A DNA stretch of 41,896 nucleotides from Pseudomonadota bacterium (GTDB lineage Bacteria > Pseudomonadota > Gammaproteobacteria > Pseudomonadales > Pseudohongiellaceae). Shown in pieces: positions 8,549 to 31,168 of this stretch. A program made the position numbers and the translations under genes. Under the pieces are notes generated by a model. The model searched no databases and had not been told where the DNA came from. It worked only from the letters and a program-made list of their open reading frames with translations. The stretch spans positions 1 through 41,896 of the forward strand of contig JADFIJ010000003.1 of the NCBI GenBank assembly GCA_022566775.1, in the 5' to 3' direction. Position 1 is the first letter of the stretch. The number at the start of each line of letters is the position of its first letter.

Positions 8549-8703
8549 AGATTGATCAATATCGTGGAGTTTTAGGGAACCACCGAGCTTTCGAGTGTTT
8601 CCGGAACGATCAGAATGATAACCACTGTAGTAAGCAAGCCTTACATTATTCGCTTTTTTGGCGGTCTTCTTAAATCGAAGCTGCAATTACTCGGCTGTGA
8701 ATA

Positions 8704-8832
8704 ACAGGACAGATCGAGGCAGTGGGCAGCAACATAAAAAAATTTGAAGCAGGTGATGAGGTGTTTCGGGATCTATGCGAGTGTGATTTTAGTGATTTTG
8801 GCGAGTATATCTGCGCTCCAGAAGCTGCATAA
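8704..8832 (+). pseudogene. Fragment of a medium-chain (zinc-type) alcohol dehydrogenase/quinone oxidoreductase
   Basis: In-frame TGQIEAVGSNIKKFEAGDEVFRDLCECDFSDFGEYICAPEAA* matches the GxVxAVGxxVxxFxxGDEVFG(D)...FAEY motif of the family; no start or C-terminal domain. Confidence 0.75.
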
Positions 8833-9633
8833 ATAGTCATCGGGCCCGGCGGCATGCGGAAGATGGGCTTTTCCAGAGATATCGTTGGCATGGGAGGAAC
8901 TCTGACGGTCCATGGAAATCTTGCCAGAAATCCACAAAAAAATGACATCTTCCCCGCAGCCGTCGTATATGCGAGAATAGTGTCTTTCTATAATGAGAAA
9001 GGCCTTTCTGACCCTATAAATGGTCAGAAACCGGAGCCTTCTACCGACACTCTGGCAGGGAAGTGGACCTCCAATCTGAATCTGGAACTACTCTCAGTAT
9101 TAGATGGAACTGCCGGGCAAGATCTTACTGCATTTGGTACCACAGCGAAAGCAAGTTGGGAGGAGTTAAAAAAAACCAGCTGTTGACTGCGCTCGGCTTA
9201 CATCTCCAGTGCCAATGGTAATACCCTATTGCAAACGCATTACACCGAGCAACGACGTAGTTATAGTTGAGGGTGTTTATGATGGTCTAGTGTGGACAGT
9301 CCATATGGACATTGATGCCCATGCAAACGCTACCCCATCAGAGCAAGGTCGTTCCATTGGTCAGTGAGAAGGTGCAAGCCTAGTTATCGACACCAACGTC
9401 TTTGCCGATCACCCAATGGGGGGGGTTGGGAGATGCCTTCAGGCTCCCTAAAATACTTGAAGGAGCGTTTGACGCGCAGCGAAGACGGGAAAAGCCTCAG
9501 TTACCATTTCGAACTTACAGGTCCACAATACGTGACCTTACCGATAGTCGGTGATTCAACCTAGATCTATGAACCTGACGTGGAATTCATAGTGGATGAC
9601 TGTAATCCAGTGAATTCGAGGGTGTGTTTTTGA
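8833..9633 (+). pseudogene. Decayed DUF6152-like secreted protein gene
   Basis: Pieces in two frames with several stops: GGMRKMGFSRDIVGMGGTLTVHGNLARNPQ; DLTAFG; then frame 2 VPMVIPYCKRITPSNDVVIVEGVYDGLVWTVHMD...SIGQ*EGASLVIDT; then frame 1 LKERLTRSEDGKSLSYHFELTGPQYVTLPIVG..*IYEPDVEFIVDDCNP. Confidence 0.65.
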
Positions 9634-9697
9634 CTGGGTAGCTTGGAAATCAGCCGAATCAAGCATAGCCAGCAGAGAGTCTTGGACAGGTTGGATA

Positions 9698-9724
9698 GGG
9701 CGGCCTGAAAGAGGCCCCTTTTGT
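9698..9724 (+). terminator. Possible rho-independent terminator
   Basis: gggcggcctgaaagaggccccttttg: short GC stem followed by T run. Confidence 0.35.
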
Positions 9725-9912
9725 CTTCCTCATCAGCTTAGATCGGTATGGGATAAACCGTTGAATGAAAAACCAAAGGTCGAAGGCAATTTCTCAATGA
9801 TGTTATTAACTGTAAAGTATCATTACGTTCGATCACGGCGCCTTCAAAGGAGTCAACGAAAAATTTTATTAGAAAAATCATTTATTGAATAAACAAAGGA
9901 GAAAGGAGGTAT

Positions 9913-10812
9913 ATGAGTAGGATTACACAAAATGGCTCCATACAGGTTGCCAATGCAACTAACCCAATTATAACTAATATAACCAAGACCAATCTAACCC
10001 AAAGAATAACAACGGCACTTCTGCTAGCTGCAGGCACAGGATCTCGCTTGCGCCCCTTGACTCTAGATGCTCCGAAGTGTCTTACCGAGGTTGGTGGGAA
10101 ACCAATTTTGGGTCGACTGGTCGATAATCTCCGCTCCCAGGGTATTACCCGATTGGTGGTAGTAACAGGATATCTGGAACATTGTGTCCGTGAATATCTG
10201 CAAGAAAATGCGGCCGATATGCAAGTAGACTACGTATTCAATCCCGTGTATCAGACAACCAATAATATCTACTCTCTATGGTTGGCGCGGCAAGAAGTCC
10301 AGGAGCCATTTGTGCTGATAGAGAGTGATCTGGTATTTGAAGAATCAATGCTGGCGGACATGTTGATACCAGATAAAATTGCGATTTCTAATATACTTCC
10401 CTGGATGAACGGAACCACGGTTGAACTGAATTCTCAGCAAGTAGTTGCGGCGTTCCATGCCAAACGTAGCGAAAACGGAAACGAACGATATAAAACCGTT
10501 AATATTTATAGCCTTTCATTACAGAGTTGGCATAGGATGATAGCGCGGTTAGATCGCTATATCACTGATGGCAGGGTTGGCGAGTACTATGAGGCCGTAT
10601 TCGCCGATATGGTGTTGGACAATGCGATTGCATTTGAACCTGTTTTCTTCGACGAAGATCGATGGTATGAGGTTGATACAATACAAGATTTAAGCAGTGC
10701 AGAACTGATATTTCCCTCGGCGCTACGGCTTACACCTGTTAAGGACTGTCAACACGCTTTGTCTACGGGTCTTGCTGATATCAATGCTACTGGAGAAGCA
10801 CTCGCAGGATAA
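9913..10812 (+). CDS. LicC-like nucleotidyltransferase (NTP transferase domain)
   Basis: ALLLAAGTGSRLRPLTLDAPKCLTEVGGKPILGRL signature; strong RBS aaggaggt just upstream. Confidence 0.88.
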   Translation: MSRITQNGSIQVANATNPIITNITKTNLTQRITTALLLAAGTGSRLRPLTLDAPKCLTEVGGKPILGRLVDNLRSQGITRLVVVTGYLEHCVREYLQENAADMQVDYVFNPVYQTTNNIYSLWLARQEVQEPFVLIESDLVFEESMLADMLIPDKIAISNILPWMNGTTVELNSQQVVAAFHAKRSENGNERYKTVNIYSLSLQSWHRMIARLDRYITDGRVGEYYEAVFADMVLDNAIAFEPVFFDEDRWYEVDTIQDLSSAELIFPSALRLTPVKDCQHALSTGLADINATGEALAG

Positions 10813-10908
10813 AGTAGTTGCTTTTTATCTGCTCTCCATTTCCCAAATAGATTGTTTGATTGCAATGCGTCAGTGTTTACTAATCCTGAGAGGTCAAGAA
10901 TTAACTTA

Positions 10909-12012
10909 ATGCAAAACCAAAAAGCCAGAGAAAGGCAATATGAGGCATTGGCCGATGCCCATGGTGGCTATTGGCGTTATGGCTTTATTGACCATGCCTA
11001 TCTCTATAATCTCCACTTCCCACCAGAGCGATTCTTTGAGCTCATCAAGAGTCAAATTCATGAGCTGGTTTTAAACTATCCTGTTGCTCAAGCCACATTA
11101 GCCGGCTGGGTTGGTGATTTGATTGATCAGCCAGCCGAACGCATCGTAGTGGGGAATGGAGCGGCTGAGCTCATAAAAATTGTTTCTGGAAGTGTCGCAA
11201 AAAAACTGATTGTTCCCGTACCTTCTTTTAATGAATATGCCAATGCTGCTCCAGAAGGCACAGTTGTTGAATTTGCTTTGGAAATACCTTCTTTCCAGCT
11301 CGATGTAGATAAGTTTGCTGCCGAAGCGATACGTTGCGAGGCTGATGTAGCGGTGGTGGTAACGCCTAACAACCCAACTTCACTGTCGGTGCCAAAAGCA
11401 GATCTGGTTCGGTTGCTGAAAAAACTGGACGATCATAATTGTATGCTCATTGTTGATGAGTCTTTTATTGATTTTGTTAGTGATCGTGAGCGAGTAACAC
11501 TTGAAAAAGATATTGCGCAATATCCAAATCTGGCGATTTTCAAAAGCATGAGTAAGGCCTACGGTATCTGTGGCTTGCGTATTGGATATATGCTCACGGC
11601 GAACGAGGATTTTGCGGGGAAAGTACGGGCGGGAATTCATATTTGGAACCTGAACGGCTTCGCTGAAACATTTTTGAAAATGGCTCCTGAGTACCGCGAA
11701 GAATTCGAATCAAGCTGTGTCCAGGTGCGCAAAGATCGGGATTTGTTTTATCATAGCCTATGTTCTATTGATGGTTTGCTCGTCTTTAAACCCGATGCCA
11801 ACTTTGTTTTCTGTCGACTTCCCGATCATGCGCCATCGGGCCCGGAAGTCGCTCGAAGCTTGTTCGTTGAACACAATATCTATATTAAGCATTGCCAGGG
11901 TAAAAGCATGCCAGATTCGGATCGCTATGTTCGTATTGCCAGTCGAACGCCCGATGAAAACAAACATTTGGTGAACCTGTTAGGTGAAGTTATTGCCACC
12001 GGGCACGCCTAG
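10909..12012 (+). CDS. PLP-dependent class I/II aminotransferase-fold enzyme (HisC/CobD-like)
   Basis: HGGYWRYG, VVVTPNNPTSL, MLIVDESFIDF, FKSMSKAYGICGLRIGYML (PLP lysine). ATG at 10909 chosen; the ORF extends up to 10852. Confidence 0.88.
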   Translation: MQNQKARERQYEALADAHGGYWRYGFIDHAYLYNLHFPPERFFELIKSQIHELVLNYPVAQATLAGWVGDLIDQPAERIVVGNGAAELIKIVSGSVAKKLIVPVPSFNEYANAAPEGTVVEFALEIPSFQLDVDKFAAEAIRCEADVAVVVTPNNPTSLSVPKADLVRLLKKLDDHNCMLIVDESFIDFVSDRERVTLEKDIAQYPNLAIFKSMSKAYGICGLRIGYMLTANEDFAGKVRAGIHIWNLNGFAETFLKMAPEYREEFESSCVQVRKDRDLFYHSLCSIDGLLVFKPDANFVFCRLPDHAPSGPEVARSLFVEHNIYIKHCQGKSMPDSDRYVRIASRTPDENKHLVNLLGEVIATGHA

Positions 12013-12050
12013 TAAATGTCAGGCAGTATAATTAGGGCAATGAAAAATTG

Positions 12051-12716
12051 ATGAATATCAGCAACCATAATGATGAACTTCATTTGTTCAAGAAAACAGG
12101 GTTCTTTGATGAACGGGAACTTGCTTTACAGCATTTGAGGGATGCCGATGAAATACTATTTTCGGCAGACGTGGATTACTGTGTCATGTTTGGCACGCTA
12201 CTTGGTTTGTTACGCCATGATGGTTTGATCCCATGGGATGATGATATGGACATTATCATTTTCGATAGCGATAATTTCGAGAAAAAATGCCGACATCAGT
12301 TTGAAGACAGAGGATATGTTGTCTATGACGATGTACGTAGCATAGACGGAATAGAAAAGCGATGCGGATACCGTATTCACTCTGAAAAGGGACTTCCTAT
12401 ACCTGGACAATCCTGGAAATTCCCGTGGCTAGGGGTTTGGGAGGCAGATGTCTGTAATAGTAAAATGACACTTCCGCCGGAGGTATTTTCCTATGCCGTA
12501 GATGATTTCTTCCCATTGGAAAGGAAATGTTTTCTGGATTTTACAGTGAGCGTGCCAAGGCTTTCGGAAGAAATTGTAAAACAGTATTACGGGAATGATT
12601 GCATGACAATTTGTATGCTTCATAATCTGGACCATCGTCAATACAAAGCTACCGGATTTCCAGAAACGAAATTCCCCCTGGCAGATGTGTTGGCCTATTT
12701 GGATAAGAATCCTTGA
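12051..12716 (+). CDS. LicD-like phosphotransferase family protein
   Basis: VDYCVMFGTLLGLLRHDGLIPWDDDMDIIIFDSD is the LicD/fukutin-type nucleotidyltransferase signature. Confidence 0.85.
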   Translation: MNISNHNDELHLFKKTGFFDERELALQHLRDADEILFSADVDYCVMFGTLLGLLRHDGLIPWDDDMDIIIFDSDNFEKKCRHQFEDRGYVVYDDVRSIDGIEKRCGYRIHSEKGLPIPGQSWKFPWLGVWEADVCNSKMTLPPEVFSYAVDDFFPLERKCFLDFTVSVPRLSEEIVKQYYGNDCMTICMLHNLDHRQYKATGFPETKFPLADVLAYLDKNP

Positions 12717-12784
12717 GTGCTGCAGGCCCCTGATAGATAGTAAGGGTATCGCTAGTAGCACGATGTATCGCGATTACCCGGAGA

Positions 12785-13525
12785 GTGCAAATAATATTGA
12801 ATCACCAAGATAGTAGCCCTGAAACAACCACCGTAGCCGATACCCTGAAGCAGGAGGCTAGCTATCCGAAGCTTGCTAAGAAAGCTAGCGATGGTATGTA
12901 CTGTTATCTTGTTCAACGTAGGATATCGCTCTATATCTCGATTTTTTGCGTACGCAAAGGGATTAGCGCCAATGTTGCTACCGGCATTGATATGGTCTTT
13001 GCAGTTCTCGCTGCATGGAGTTTATCCCAAGGCTACTATCTCTTGGGAGTGATCTTGATTCAAGTGTTTGGCCTATGGTCTTGTGTCGACGGGGAGGTAT
13101 CACGGCTGTCAAAAATGCCCAGTAAGCTTGGCGACTTTTATGACACGATGACAGATCGCTCGGCTGAATTTCTAATTTTTGCCGGAGTGTTGTATTCATT
13201 ACCGTTAGCCGCTAGCGATTATTCCTGGGGAACTCTCTTCTTTTGTTATATAGGGATGGTGTTTCTGATCACAGCATCCTCTGAGAAGTTTCGTTCTGTC
13301 TATCATGAAAATTATCCAAAGAGTGAACACGAAGCCGTCTTCAGCTGGCTTTGTGCGGGGAGTGATACTCGGTTTTTGTATCTCTGTATAGCAATTCTTG
13401 GATATTCGATTACCGGCGAAACTGCGATTATTAAGTGGTTGATTATGGCACTGTCCTTCTTGCTTGGACTGAACTTCCTATTCCGAATATGGAAGATATC
13501 TATACTTCCGCTGGAAAATAAATAG
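12785..13525 (+). CDS. CDP-alcohol phosphatidyltransferase family protein
   Basis: DGEVSRLSKMPSKLGDFYDTMTD matches DGx2(A)Rx8Gx3Dx3D with Ala replaced by Ser; several TM segments. Confidence 0.88.
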   Translation: MQIILNHQDSSPETTTVADTLKQEASYPKLAKKASDGMYCYLVQRRISLYISIFCVRKGISANVATGIDMVFAVLAAWSLSQGYYLLGVILIQVFGLWSCVDGEVSRLSKMPSKLGDFYDTMTDRSAEFLIFAGVLYSLPLAASDYSWGTLFFCYIGMVFLITASSEKFRSVYHENYPKSEHEAVFSWLCAGSDTRFLYLCIAILGYSITGETAIIKWLIMALSFLLGLNFLFRIWKISILPLENK

Positions 13526-13562
13526 TGATAAGGATGACATCAGCTTAACCGTCGCGGATTAA

Positions 13563-14261
13563 ATGGGAAAACGATTCTACCCTTCTTTACAGGATTTCTT
13601 GACTGAACTGAACGAGAACTGTCTTCTTCTGGCTCGGCATGGTGAGACGGACTGGAATGCGATGAAAATCATACAGGGTCAGCAGGATCGACCCTTGAAT
13701 TTGACTGGTTTCGAGCAACGGAAAAACCTGTTCTTCCTCTTAGACACAGTCTGTCTAAACCGAGTAATCTGTAGTGAACTGCAGAGAACCATACAGACGG
13801 CATTGCCCATCGGTGTCGAGAAAAATTTGCGACTCGAAAAATTCTCTGAACTCAATGAAGTTAAATTGGGTATTTTCGAAGGGCAACACAAAGAAGAGTT
13901 TTCGGACGAACCCACTAGGAAGTGCTATCAGAAATTTCTGGATGACGAGGTAAATGTAGTTCTTCCTGGCGGTGGAGAAAGCCTCGTTATGGTGGACAAC
14001 CGCGTGCAAGCCCTGGTGAAAAACACCGTTGACAGCGTCGTAAGGTCCGGTCATGTATTAGTGGTCGGGCATCGCAATGTTAACAAGATGATTATTAAAA
14101 ACCTTCTGGGACTCACTGTGGCAGAAGGATACCAGGTAGAACATAAAAACTCGTGGCTTTACGTCTTTGCGCCTGGAAAGGTTGAAATATTCTTGATTGA
14201 AATTTCCGAACCTCAAGAAGCGATTCATGTGCAGACCGGTGTTAAGAGAATTAGAGAGTAG
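13563..14261 (+). CDS. Histidine phosphatase family protein (phosphoglycerate mutase/CobC-like)
   Basis: LLLARHGETDWNAMKIIQGQQDRPLNLTG and VLVVGHRNVNK motifs. Confidence 0.9.
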   Translation: MGKRFYPSLQDFLTELNENCLLLARHGETDWNAMKIIQGQQDRPLNLTGFEQRKNLFFLLDTVCLNRVICSELQRTIQTALPIGVEKNLRLEKFSELNEVKLGIFEGQHKEEFSDEPTRKCYQKFLDDEVNVVLPGGGESLVMVDNRVQALVKNTVDSVVRSGHVLVVGHRNVNKMIIKNLLGLTVAEGYQVEHKNSWLYVFAPGKVEIFLIEISEPQEAIHVQTGVKRIRE

Positions 14262-14611
14262 TTAAGTCCAGGGCAAGTTGCGAGCCGACAGCGATCATCT
14301 TTTTAGTGGAATTTGTAGTACCCAGTTCTGTGCTGGCTTGCAATTGCGACAGGTCGCGCTACAGACTCAATTTTTGAATTTGAAAAAACCCCAGCCCTGT
14401 AACCGAACCAGTTCAGGCAATGCTTAAGACATAAATGCTCGCTGAGGGCTAGAGGGGGACACTAATAGAATAACAGCTTGAGATTTTTGGTTGACATATT
14501 CCTGGTCAACTATGAGCGTTAAGAGCTACAGCAATTTTTCTGCATAACTGGCGTAATCAGCCGATTGTATTTACGCCTGTCTACTGCATTTGAGTTACGG
14601 TACACCTTTTA

Positions 14612-16465
14612 TTATACGGATGGACAGCAAGGGCATTGAGCCGCACCACTTGCCATCACAGATTCTGCAGCTCTGGCATTCTGCTCTGCAGTTCGTTTCG
14701 TGACAGCGACAGTAGCCGCATTAGCAACAGCCGTGGAATCGGGCCTGGTTACTGCCAGCTCCTGCCCAAAATACCCGGTATAAATCTGGTATTGATGCTG
14801 ACCAATATCAGTTGGAATCCGAATCGTATTGCCATCAACGATTTCGACGTCGCTTATCGTCGCGCCATCACAGATGACAACAGCCTCATTGGCGTTGGGT
14901 AAATTGGTAATTCTCCAGCTGGTCTGTTGACCAGCCAGATTGCGATCGCCCACGTAAGTTCCAATGTTAAGAACGCCATTGTCCTTATCATTCCATGCGG
15001 TATCGACACCCAAGTTTGGATAATCTACACCTTCGAGAGTCGGCGCAGTGTACTTGTCTAGATGCTTTACCTTGAATGCGTCTATCCAATTACCCTCGGC
15101 GATTTCACTGATCATCAATTGGCCTGAGCCCTGACCCCGTGGCCACGGTTCACCATAGTTGAACCACCAGCCGAACTTATCCATCTCATCGCCAAACCAG
15201 CGCGGCTCCGAGTAGCGTTCGGCTGCGGCACTGAGGCGGCTAACTGCCGTGTGATCCCCCAACGCTTTAGCCATAACCAGACCAAGCGCATTCGGCTGGA
15301 TTTCCCTTCTAGGATCGCGCCACCCTTGCGCATTGGCAGTTGCTTCATAGATCTGGGTGGCTATTTCAGTGGACTGTGGCATCAAGTAAAAAGCCACACC
15401 ACCACCTGGACCGAGTGTTCCTGGTAAGTTAATTTTGAAATCAGCGAGAGGGTCGTAATACATGGTCATCCATTCGATCTGTTGCTGATCGTTGATACCC
15501 ATATAATTATCGCGCATAAACTCAACCCAGTTTTCAAATACACCGTATGAGTTCGTCACTCCTAGTTGGTCGGATAAATACATACCCAAACCCGCGGCTG
15601 CATTGCAGTACGGCCATATCTTCGTGTTCTCACAATGAGGACCTTCAGGATGGTCGGTATATTGCTGGCGCAGGTGCTCTACAATCTTGGGTTGAGTCCA
15701 TTCAAATTGTTGGTTTTCGTAGCCCGCAATCTGCCAGGGTTGTTCCCACTTATTATCGCCAGAAACATATTTGTAAATTGAGAGAATCAGGTTCAACCAT
15801 CCACGGAAAAATAAATTTCCATCGGCGCCAATCGGATCCGGCTGTAGCCCCCATGGCTCAACTCCGTTAGCAGTCCAACCGGGAGCATCATAGTTTCCAC
15901 GTACCCGCTCAGGCCATGATCCCATGGTAGCCGCTGGATAATTTTTTCGGTCCGGGCTTTCGCCAATGAACGTATTCCAATCTATAGCAGCCCAATAAGC
16001 TGTGTGTCTGGTTGCCAGCTCATCCATAATTCGAGCATAAACTTCGCGCCACGCCGGCGTCTGATCAGCCATGAGCATCACACCATAGCTAGAATCGGCA
16101 AGATCAAAACGTGGATAACTTAACATGGGTGCGGCGGTATATTGGTCCCACCATGGATGGGGACCATTGCCATCATATTCCCAATCAATGTTACCACGCG
16201 GTAAATTTATGCCCCAGGGGCGCTCCTCTGAACCGCTAAACCCCCAATCATCTTGATAAGTTGCCTTCTGCCAAATAAATCGCAACCAGCCTTTGGTTCG
16301 CTCATTGTGTTTTGGATAAAAACTCGGGGTGTACTTGTGTGTCGCGGTAGTCGGTGTTGCTGCATTCTGTGTTGAATTCACGCAGGCATTCAGGGATACA
16401 GCGCCCCCTGCTAGAGCGGCGCTCTTTAAGAAATTACGTCTTGTTCCCGTCTTGGTCTGCGACAT
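14612..16465 (-). CDS. Tat-exported linalool dehydratase/isomerase-like domain protein
   Basis: TRRNFLKSAALAGGAVSLNAC (Tat plus lipobox-like); DPIGADGNLFFRGWLNLILSIYKYVSGDNKWE and HCENTKIWPYCNAAAGLGMYLSDQLG resemble LinD, including Cys-x8-Cys. Confidence 0.75.
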   Translation of the reverse strand: MSQTKTGTRRNFLKSAALAGGAVSLNACVNSTQNAATPTTATHKYTPSFYPKHNERTKGWLRFIWQKATYQDDWGFSGSEERPWGINLPRGNIDWEYDGNGPHPWWDQYTAAPMLSYPRFDLADSSYGVMLMADQTPAWREVYARIMDELATRHTAYWAAIDWNTFIGESPDRKNYPAATMGSWPERVRGNYDAPGWTANGVEPWGLQPDPIGADGNLFFRGWLNLILSIYKYVSGDNKWEQPWQIAGYENQQFEWTQPKIVEHLRQQYTDHPEGPHCENTKIWPYCNAAAGLGMYLSDQLGVTNSYGVFENWVEFMRDNYMGINDQQQIEWMTMYYDPLADFKINLPGTLGPGGGVAFYLMPQSTEIATQIYEATANAQGWRDPRREIQPNALGLVMAKALGDHTAVSRLSAAAERYSEPRWFGDEMDKFGWWFNYGEPWPRGQGSGQLMISEIAEGNWIDAFKVKHLDKYTAPTLEGVDYPNLGVDTAWNDKDNGVLNIGTYVGDRNLAGQQTSWRITNLPNANEAVVICDGATISDVEIVDGNTIRIPTDIGQHQYQIYTGYFGQELAVTRPDSTAVANAATVAVTKRTAEQNARAAESVMASGAAQCPCCPSV

Positions 16466-29847: not shown

Positions 29848-30041
29848 CGGTGTGGTCTAACTAGACACACCGTGAACCCATCCCTGGGGGCTCGGCGCCA
29901 AGCCCATGCTGGCGACGGAATCAAGGGGTCAGAGTTCTTGATTAATGAGTAGATTGGTCTAACCTTTAATGAGAATCAAGTAACCTGCCCCATTGATACG
30001 GAATAGATTTAAAGAATCAAGTAACCTCACCCCTTGATTGT
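29848..30041. repeat. Degenerate palindromic/REP-like repeat cluster
   Basis: Hairpin cggtgtggtct-aact-agacacaccg; outer aatcaaggggt ... accccttgatt; two related 25-mers gaatcaagtaacct[gccccattgat/caccccttgat] at 29973 and 30014. Confidence 0.7.
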
Positions 30042-30057
30042 TGATTGGACGACATGC

Positions 30058-30522
30058 TCATATGGATTTGCCTTTTTTTGCTACCTTCAGTAAGGCATTC
30101 CAATCATCTGGCGGATTGCCATTATCGAGCATTTTTGTGAATATTTTATAAGCATCTGTTTTGCTGTCGTATGCGCGTAGTGTCTTGTCATCATTTACCC
30201 AAGCATAAACAATAATCTTTGAGGCTGAATCAAACCGAAAAAAAAGGCGATATTGCTGAAAAAATTTCGCTCTAAACCAATGCTTATATTCTTCGCCTAA
30301 GGTTTTACCTTGCCGATATTGTTCATGTGTAGGGTCTTGTGGGATAAGTTTAAAGACTAGTTTATTAATAGCCGCTAATAGTTTACTCGCATTCCTTTTC
30401 TTATAATTCTTTGAATATTTGGCTTTAAGCTTTTCAACTTTTGTTACCAAGGTTTTAACTTGATCTGTAAAAAGCGGATGGGAAAAAAGAGTCCACCCGT
30501 TGATAATCAGTAATTCAGGCAA
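30058..30522 (-). CDS. yhaV: YhaV family type II toxin
   Basis: INGWTLFSHPLF, LGEEYKHWFRAKFFQQYRLFFRFDS, IIVYAWVNDDKTLRAYDSKTDAYKIFTKML. Confidence 0.88.
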   Translation of the reverse strand: MPELLIINGWTLFSHPLFTDQVKTLVTKVEKLKAKYSKNYKKRNASKLLAAINKLVFKLIPQDPTHEQYRQGKTLGEEYKHWFRAKFFQQYRLFFRFDSASKIIVYAWVNDDKTLRAYDSKTDAYKIFTKMLDNGNPPDDWNALLKVAKKGKSI

Positions 30523-30524
30523 GC

Positions 30525-30854
30525 CTATTCATCTTCTTCTAAAAGAGGGGAATCAAGATCTACATTAAGGTCTCCCACTAATGTGTGGATGCGCTTACCC
30601 AGTGATGGAGTCAAATATTGTAATTGATCTGGGTTATTAGCCATGTCGTCTGCCAGAAAATGGAGGAACTTTTCTAACACTGGATCACCCTGTGTTGTCT
30701 CTGCGCGAGTAAAACTGACGCGCCCATTATTTTCAATAGTATAGAGCACTTTATCACCCTTTTTTAAATGCAGGGCTTTACGAATAGCGGCAGGCACTGT
30801 GTTCTGATAACGCTCAGTCAGCGTTGCTTCAGCAGTTAAAACAATATTTGGCAT
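30525..30854 (-). CDS. prlF: PrlF/SohA family antitoxin (AbrB-type N-terminus)
   Basis: ATLTERYQNTVPAAIRKALHLKKGDKVLYTI; RBS aaggagg before ATG at 30854; directly upstream of yhaV. Confidence 0.87.
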   Translation of the reverse strand: MPNIVLTAEATLTERYQNTVPAAIRKALHLKKGDKVLYTIENNGRVSFTRAETTQGDPVLEKFLHFLADDMANNPDQLQYLTPSLGKRIHTLVGDLNVDLDSPLLEEDE

Positions 30855-30890
30855 CTTGCCCTCCTTGATGAATCTTGTTAACACATGCAG

Positions 30891-30914
30891 ATGGTAATGT
30901 ATATGCATTACCAT
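30891..30914. promoter_or_regulatory. Candidate PrlF/YhaV operator palindrome
   Basis: ATGGTAATGTATATGCATTACCAT: 9-bp perfect arms around a near-symmetric centre, about 36 nt upstream of the prlF start. Confidence 0.55.
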
Positions 30915-31168
30915 GTCAATTCATTCGATAATGAATCAAGAGCCTAAATTAACTGATTCTTATTTCATAGGGTGGGCATAGCGTGAGTGATGAGATGGAC
31001 GCTCCCAACCGGCGTCGCAATGCGCCAAACTGAAAGTGCACAAACACATTTCAGTAGGGATTTACTGGACACCCACAAACTGGCATCAATAAAATCAATA
31101 AGTTAGAAGGTCATTTTTGTGGGTGTCCTGTTCTTTCTTGCTTTCCGCCTGAACGCATAGGGTAATAT

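Follow-up and report, generated by a model that had tools for sequence, protein, structure and literature searches.

FrbH, an enzyme of FR-900098 biosynthesis, cytidylylates 2-amino-4-phosphonobutyrate and then decarboxylates the cytidine monophosphate (CMP) conjugate (PMC8976061). The conversion of phosphoserine to ethanolamine phosphate is also a known enzyme reaction, that of Cj1436, and serinol phosphate is made by Cj1437 (PMC12409886). Here we analyze a five-gene cassette at positions 9913–14261 of a 41,896-nucleotide stretch from a gammaproteobacterium of the Pseudohongiellaceae (GenBank assembly GCA_022566775.1, contig JADFIJ010000003.1, positions 1–41,896 of the forward strand), referred to below as the window. 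The first two genes encode a LicC/PntC-like cytidylyltransferase and a CobD-like pyridoxal-phosphate (PLP) enzyme, and the nearest described chemistry to that of this pair is FrbH-type phosphonate biosynthesis. No description of the cassette was found in the open-access literature (subscription papers were outside the search).

The five-gene set is a rare version of a broader cassette, in which the cytidylyltransferase and the PLP enzyme form the constant core. In our opinion, the chances are about even that the cassette is a horizontally spreading module whose core starts from a phosphorylated amino acid, O-phospho-L-serine being the most likely one, and supplies variable transferases with a cytidine diphosphate (CDP)-activated amino-alcohol, in that case CDP-ethanolamine.

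Organization and distribution of the cassette

The five open reading frames (ORFs) of the cassette are consecutive, open and intact, and all lie on the forward strand. They encode a LicC/PntC-like nucleotidyltransferase acting with cytidine triphosphate (CTP) (9913–10812; 299 amino acids; NTP_transferase, PF00483, 49 bits), a CobD/phosphoserine-decarboxylase-like PLP enzyme (10852–12012; 386 amino acids; Aminotran_1_2), a LicD-family phosphotransferase (12048–12716; 222 amino acids; LicD), a CDP-alcohol phosphotransferase homologue, termed here CDPOH (12785–13525; 246 amino acids; CDP-OH_P_transf, PF01066, 34.8 bits), and a CobC-like histidine phosphatase with the RHGET and GHR motifs (13563–14261; 232 amino acids; His_Phos_1, PF00300, 127 bits). 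Each domain match is above its curated Pfam cut-off, which agrees with the gene families and the arrangement read from the DNA in the initial annotation.

Homologues 61–83% identical to the PLP enzyme of the window were found at 79 loci. These span Gamma- and Alphaproteobacteria, several delta lineages, Bacteroidota, Kiritimatiellota, Planctomycetota, Chloroflexi, Actinomycetota and Methanosarcinales, and many of them are titled marine, seep or vent. It should be noted that lineage and habitat were taken from record titles and that, for some loci on short contigs, the assigned phylum may be wrong; L009 and L011 both come from one ‘Verrucomicrobia’ metagenome-assembled genome (MAG). Cultured carriers include Methanococcoides seepicolus, Labilibacter marinus, Carboxylicivirga marina, Pontiella sulfatireligans and Flavivirga rizhaonensis.

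Wherever a locus extends far enough, the nucleotidyltransferase gene precedes the PLP gene in essentially all cases, and all 76 adjacent pairs called are co-oriented, with a median gap of 48.5 bp. The third gene encodes a single PssA-like CDP-alcohol phosphotransferase of about 214 amino acids in about 74 of the 79 loci and usually overlaps or abuts the PLP gene; in the window, the trio of LicD, CDPOH and phosphatase genes stands in its place. Among the 62 loci with enough downstream sequence, the third gene is followed by an ATP-grasp protein resembling the amino-acid ligases LdmS and BesA in 19 and by an S-adenosylmethionine-dependent methyltransferase (PF05891) in 11. The two never occur together (0/62; hypergeometric P 0.011 under an assumption of independence that these loci do not satisfy).

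The complete five-gene order is present in the window, in another species of its genus (L008/L132) and in two genomes of a Planctomycetota-labelled phylum (L038 and L129), the second of these full copies having been returned by a search within the phylum of L038. The short contig of L009 shows the same order as far as its end. A CDPOH-based search of 369 genomes in the class of the window found the five-gene locus in the window only. The cassette had initially been read as one five-gene unit, and its recurrence elsewhere supports the conserved order; the standing unit, though, is the first two genes, the last three being one of two interchangeable modules. In trees of the core proteins, the five-gene loci are split up and interleaved with three-gene cores: the window, L008 and L009 group with the three-gene locus L006 (support 98), and L038 groups with the three-gene loci L028 and L032 (support 100). 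Most simply read, this interleaving reflects an exchange of transfer modules on a common core, and the two modules would then presumably draw on the same CDP-linked product.

The cassette shows a sporadic spread among mostly marine bacteria and methane-producing archaea, and its horizontal gain, as initially proposed for the window, is well supported. In a set of 98 genomes (that of the window and its relatives, about 60 of the same genus), the PLP gene occurs in one genome besides the window's own, as a copy 78% identical, and the DNA flanking this same-genus copy (on the contig of L008) has no similarity to the flanks in the window. Prevalence is 21/200 sampled genomes in the class of Methanococcoides, 12/277 in that of L014 and 1/345 in that of L049, where the single carrier is the reference genome itself. 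As first described, the cassette is AT-richer than its neighbors: its GC content is 0.44 vs 0.52 for the window and 0.53–0.55 for the flanks, and GC at third codon positions is 0.41–0.49 in the cassette genes vs 0.59–0.77 in five other ORFs of the window. The pseudogene patch reported upstream is supported by one fragment: within a decayed stretch on the forward strand (8701–9186), which has stop-to-stop frames and no long ORF, positions 8701–8829, bounded by stops, match the alcohol-dehydrogenase domain ADH_N with an E value of 4e-4, under the Pfam cut-off. Searches of phages with the PLP enzyme and of plasmids with the CDPOH of the window returned nothing informative.

One Methanosarcina MAG (L035, approximately 9022–15344; genome coordinates G378:C18:116496-121189) carries the three-gene cassette twice in tandem. 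Both copies are equally identical to the window, by recent duplication or as an assembly artefact.

Core enzymes and their relatives

The nucleotidyltransferase has LicC as its best relative in the PDB (1JYK, E 9e-20), followed by PntC (6PD1), and a profile search gave the same ranking, so that its initial description as LicC-like stands. Both relatives are CTP enzymes acting on phospho- or phosphono-amines. The motif GxG(S/T)R...PK reads GTGSRLRPLTLDAPK in the window and is matched strictly in 66 of 76 relatives. The presence of both LicC- and LicD-type proteins in the cassette would also be expected of ordinary phosphocholine decoration with salvaged choline, to which the PLP enzyme would be incidental. 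However, the PLP enzyme is found at every nucleotidyltransferase locus and LicD at few, and no choline kinase (PF01633) was found in the whole genome of the window, which is 86% complete (choline transporters were not searched for). This explanation is, in our opinion, largely refuted and scarcely credible. The initial annotation had noted the lack of choline kinase and of phosphoenolpyruvate (PEP) mutase in the window, and both absences extend to the whole genome at that completeness.

The PLP enzyme, a protein of fold type I, scores higher against the NCBIfam model of CobD (TIGR01140, 172.2 bits, cut-off 290.55) than against that of HisC (TIGR01141, 137.6 bits, cut-off 276.55), both scores being under the cut-off. 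By sequence and by fold (AlphaFold model, mean predicted local distance difference test score, pLDDT, 74), the best solved relative is SMUL_1544 (6OUX), described as a decarboxylase; Salmonella CobD is second, and both rank ahead of almost all HisC structures. A Sulfurospirillum homologue, closely related to SMUL_1544, carries the annotation of a norcobamide serine-O-phosphate decarboxylase. The predicted PLP lysine (Lys235), the WNxN motif (265–268), Arg361 and Arg365 are invariant in 80/80 sequences, and an N-terminal HGG (37–39) is present in 79 of them; in CobD, His8, Arg323 and Arg337 presumably have functional roles. Scores, fold ranking and motifs thus point, as first suggested, to the CobD/phosphoserine-decarboxylase side, although the position of CobD Arg323 is a lysine, and the enzyme is a putative decarboxylase. 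HisC identity, which would have counted against the initial reading, was ruled out by the same three lines of evidence. A cobamide role of the cassette was also rejected: no cob genes were seen beside it, and TIGR01140 and TIGR03162, the latter matched by the phosphatase, score below cut-off.

The same core chemistry might yield another amino-alcohol, with O-phosphothreonine converted to (R)-1-amino-2-propanol phosphate, or dihydroxyacetone phosphate (DHAP) to serinol phosphate, before CDP activation. Threonine phosphate is the substrate of CobD itself, the CobD model is the top NCBIfam match of the PLP enzyme, and Cj1437 provides a precedent for serinol phosphate (PMC12409886). SMUL_1544, however, is the top match by sequence and fold, the annotation of its close relative names serine O-phosphate, and a DHAP transaminase would be expected nearer to HisC-type enzymes (Cj1437 itself was outside the comparison). 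We consider this alternative unlikely.

The nearest relatives outside the family lie beside PEP mutase or are fused to a cytidylyltransferase. Plasmid homologues of the PLP enzyme are 34–45% identical to it, and in rhizobia (M. loti, Rhizobium sp. 007, Bradyrhizobium sp. 187 and Mesorhizobium 131-3-5 were examined) the homologues cluster with PEP mutase and a PntC-like cytidylyltransferase, in most cases also with a class I/II aminotransferase and often with a CDP-alcohol phosphotransferase. This rhizobial group is the tree neighbor of the PLP family of the window (joint clade support 99; family alone 74). No phosphonopyruvate decarboxylase above cut-off was found on these rhizobial plasmids; therefore, phosphonoalanine could arise there by transamination and then be decarboxylated by the CobD-like enzyme. 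Other outside relatives are nucleotidyltransferase-PLP fusions with the domain order of FrbH.

Given such neighbors, and given PntC as the second PDB match of the nucleotidyltransferase, the core might make CMP-aminoethylphosphonate in a phosphonate pathway whose PEP mutase is encoded elsewhere. Against this, PEP mutase exceeds the cut-off in none of 30 cassette genomes (the window's and 29 others, many of them incomplete MAGs). A phosphonate pathway in the host was rejected on this evidence, and we regard it as very unlikely.

Three of the outside loci have features of their own. On pNGR234a, a fusion homologue surrounded by transposases (NGR_RS30660; L088:5269-7125) has alanine where the PLP lysine would be expected; it has probably decayed or been repurposed as a domain. 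On Priestia megaterium pBM700 (L086), a nucleotidyltransferase-PLP fusion adjoins genes for an AAC(3)-like acetyltransferase, a paralogue of DXR and two ATP-grasp proteins, a cluster that looks to be of the FR-900098/fosmidomycin type with its own resistant target. The PEP-mutase cluster of the Rhizobium sp. 007 plasmid (L101) includes a CobD-like enzyme, a CDP-alcohol phosphotransferase and an octopine/nopaline-type dehydrogenase, and its product could be a phosphonate opine.

Transferases and phosphatase

The PssA-like third gene of most relatives encodes a complete CDP-alcohol motif, with serine after D3, in 71 of 72 sequences; the spacing from AR to G is 12 residues instead of 8. The residues corresponding to the serine-binding site of MjPSS (PMC8633023), namely Asp62, Ser63, Asp66, Phe105 and Arg101, are invariant in a 20-sequence alignment. 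The protein also resembles archaetidylserine synthase and scores 69–70 bits against TIGR00473 (cut-off 107). A PssA-family match was present in 12/12 cassette genomes examined and a canonical PssA above cut-off in 7 of them, besides the cassette copy where there is one; the third gene is not the housekeeping PssA.

In the window, CDPOH is nearest to Af2299 and IPCT-DIPPS (DIPP synthase), with matches to 4O6M (E 1e-10) and 4MND (E 1e-9), and is also near phosphatidylinositol phosphate (PIP) synthase. Two invariant residues, R170 and R196, are aligned with a lysine and an arginine of DIPPS, the direct alignment with PIP synthase having stopped short of this region. In PIP synthases, the acceptor phosphate is held by two basic residues, R153 and R191 in RsPIPS (PMC4634129). 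By analogy, CDPOH and the adjoining phosphatase (TIGR03162, 105.1 bits, under the cut-off of 162.9) would fit transfer to a phosphorylated alcohol followed by dephosphorylation. The LicD protein scores 44.5 bits against PF04991 (cut-off 22.6) and keeps the metal motif GTLLG...GLIPWDDDMD; it also matches NF045866 (Mf1; 58.5 bits, below cut-off) and, weakly, FKRP (6KAJ).

Both types of CDP-alcohol phosphotransferase are membrane proteins, and the known members of the PssA and PIP synthase types use CDP-diacylglycerol or CDP-archaeol. The cassette might therefore make membrane lipid head groups, in bacteria and archaea alike: phosphatidyl-amino-alcohols would be formed either by a Kennedy-like route from CDP-amino-alcohol and diacylglycerol or archaeol, or from CDP-diacylglycerol and amino-alcohol phosphate, and the phosphatase would remove a terminal phosphate, as in the synthesis of phosphatidylglycerol phosphate or PIP products. 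However, CDPOH (246 amino acids) has six hydrophobic segments and the PssA-like protein (217 amino acids) seven, whereas CDP-alcohol phosphotransferases with lipid acceptors have three or four extra C-terminal helices (PMC4634129). For CDPOH, only the helix count was used, its AlphaFold model, based on four sequences, being poor (pLDDT 51). Soluble acceptors are favored over lipids because these extra helices are lacking. Moreover, the PssA-family matches in all cassette genomes examined argue against a head-group role, and in the CDP-diacylglycerol route the cytidylyltransferase would be superfluous. We therefore hold lipid head groups to be improbable, and the placement of the group on a lipid, as initially proposed, is disfavored.

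Adjacent observations concern other genes. In a genome of the phylum of L038, an IPCT-DIPPS-like fusion directly follows an inositol-1-phosphate-synthase-like gene (L130:2557-3912), so that a pathway of the di-myo-inositol phosphate type occurs here beyond its usual hyperthermophilic hosts. Downstream of the cassette, on the reverse strand of the window (14612–16465), lies a gene for a twin-arginine translocation (TAT)-signal protein that matches the linalool dehydratase/isomerase domain PF18566 at 45 bits, and positions 30001–31000 form a further AT-rich island with a GC content of 0.385, below that of the cassette.

Proposed pathway

In the pathway that we propose at about even odds, the core pair would convert a phosphorylated amino acid to a CDP-amino-alcohol, in a phosphate-ester counterpart of the FrbH-type chemistry. 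Phosphoserine might be decarboxylated to phosphoethanolamine, which would then react with CTP, or cytidylylation might come first and decarboxylation after it, as in FrbH. No further supply genes would be needed, since O-phosphoserine, which corresponds to phosphonoalanine with oxygen in place of the phosphonate carbon, commonly arises as an intermediate when serine is made. The variable second half would spend the CDP-linked donor. In most relatives, the PssA-like enzyme may join the amino-alcohol group to serine because the serine-binding residues are kept. In the window, the DIPP/PIP-synthase-like phosphotransferase would join it to a phosphorylated small alcohol, the CobC-like phosphatase would strip the spare phosphate, and LicD would put the same group on a sugar. 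The initial annotation was thus right in outline about the donor but too broad about the acceptor, and it did not include the three-gene form, which is the dominant one, the absence of the D1 aspartate described below or the logic of FrbH and of the PEP-mutase clusters of rhizobia.

Several points weigh against this pathway. The position of CobD Arg323 is occupied by a lysine (Lys346) in 80/80 PLP enzyme sequences, which could mean another substrate, and the score against TIGR01140 is far under the cut-off; therefore, the enzyme is no plain CobD. The canonical CDP-alcohol phosphotransferase signature is D1xxD2GxxAR...GxxxD3xxxD4 (PMC4634129). The motif of CDPOH, initially called full, has Ser99 at D1, as does every close relative examined, and Ser106 in place of the signature alanine; thus, the eight-residue signature is incomplete, with PF01066 over cut-off. 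Mutation of motif aspartates lowered or abolished the activity of MjPSS (PMC8633023), and CDPOH, deprived of the metal ligand D1, may be weak or altered. In addition, the pathway has LicD and a second phosphotransferase draw on a single donor and gives no reason for this, and several cassette loci are short metagenomic contigs.

A bolder extension, possible if doubtful, is that the cassette is a transferable, phosphonate-free counterpart of the FrbH and Pnt systems, by which both bacteria and archaea would form CDP-ethanolamine de novo, with phosphoserine as the starting compound. It would serve the synthesis of undescribed soluble phosphodiesters, possibly osmolytes of marine anaerobes; an example would be serine-phospho-ethanolamine, further N-acylated by the amino-acid ligase or N-methylated. 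If the proposed pathway is right, it would be a one-operon prokaryotic route to a CDP-amino-alcohol that is independent of choline and ethanolamine, and the cytidylylation-plus-decarboxylation chemistry of phosphonate antibiotics would reach ordinary phosphate esters. It would also point to an unidentified metabolite of widespread marine sediment bacteria and of about a tenth of the sampled genomes of the Methanococcoides class. The existence of cultured carriers makes the product open to direct search by 31P nuclear magnetic resonance and mass spectrometry.

Comparison with known systems

The cassette shares parts with several described systems. With the Lic pathway, and presumably with the Treponema CDP-choline pathway, it shares LicC- and LicD-type enzymes, but it has no kinase and would supply its amino-alcohol de novo. 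The sequence of CTP transferase, CDP-alcohol phosphotransferase and phosphatase follows the logic of the IPCT/DIPPS-phosphatase system for di-myo-inositol phosphate and of PIP synthase, to which the cassette adds an amino-acid decarboxylase and LicD, while its CDPOH lacks the D1 aspartate. In Pnt clusters, a PntC-like cytidylyltransferase likewise adjoins a PLP enzyme, and LicD-like or CDP-alcohol transferases lie downstream; unlike these clusters, the cassette has no PEP mutase, and its PLP enzyme is of the CobD type rather than the class V aminoethylphosphonate transaminase of 6PD1.

FrbH, likened here to the cassette by domain order and published chemistry and not by its sequence, also combines a LicC-like nucleotidyltransferase with a PLP decarboxylase, and some relatives of the window pair are fused. 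FrbH acts on a C–P amino acid, and in its pathway CMP is reportedly removed later, whereas the cassette genes are separate, occur without PEP mutase and are followed by a transferase. With CobD and SMUL_1544, the PLP enzyme shares the fold, the W-N/S-x-N motif, the N-terminal HGG (as in CobD) and a probable phospho-amino-acid decarboxylation, and a CobC-like phosphatase also follows in the cassette of the window. The differences are the location outside a cob cluster, the score against TIGR01140 under the cut-off, the lysine at the Arg323 position and the fate of the product, which in the cassette would be activated with CTP rather than put into a corrin.

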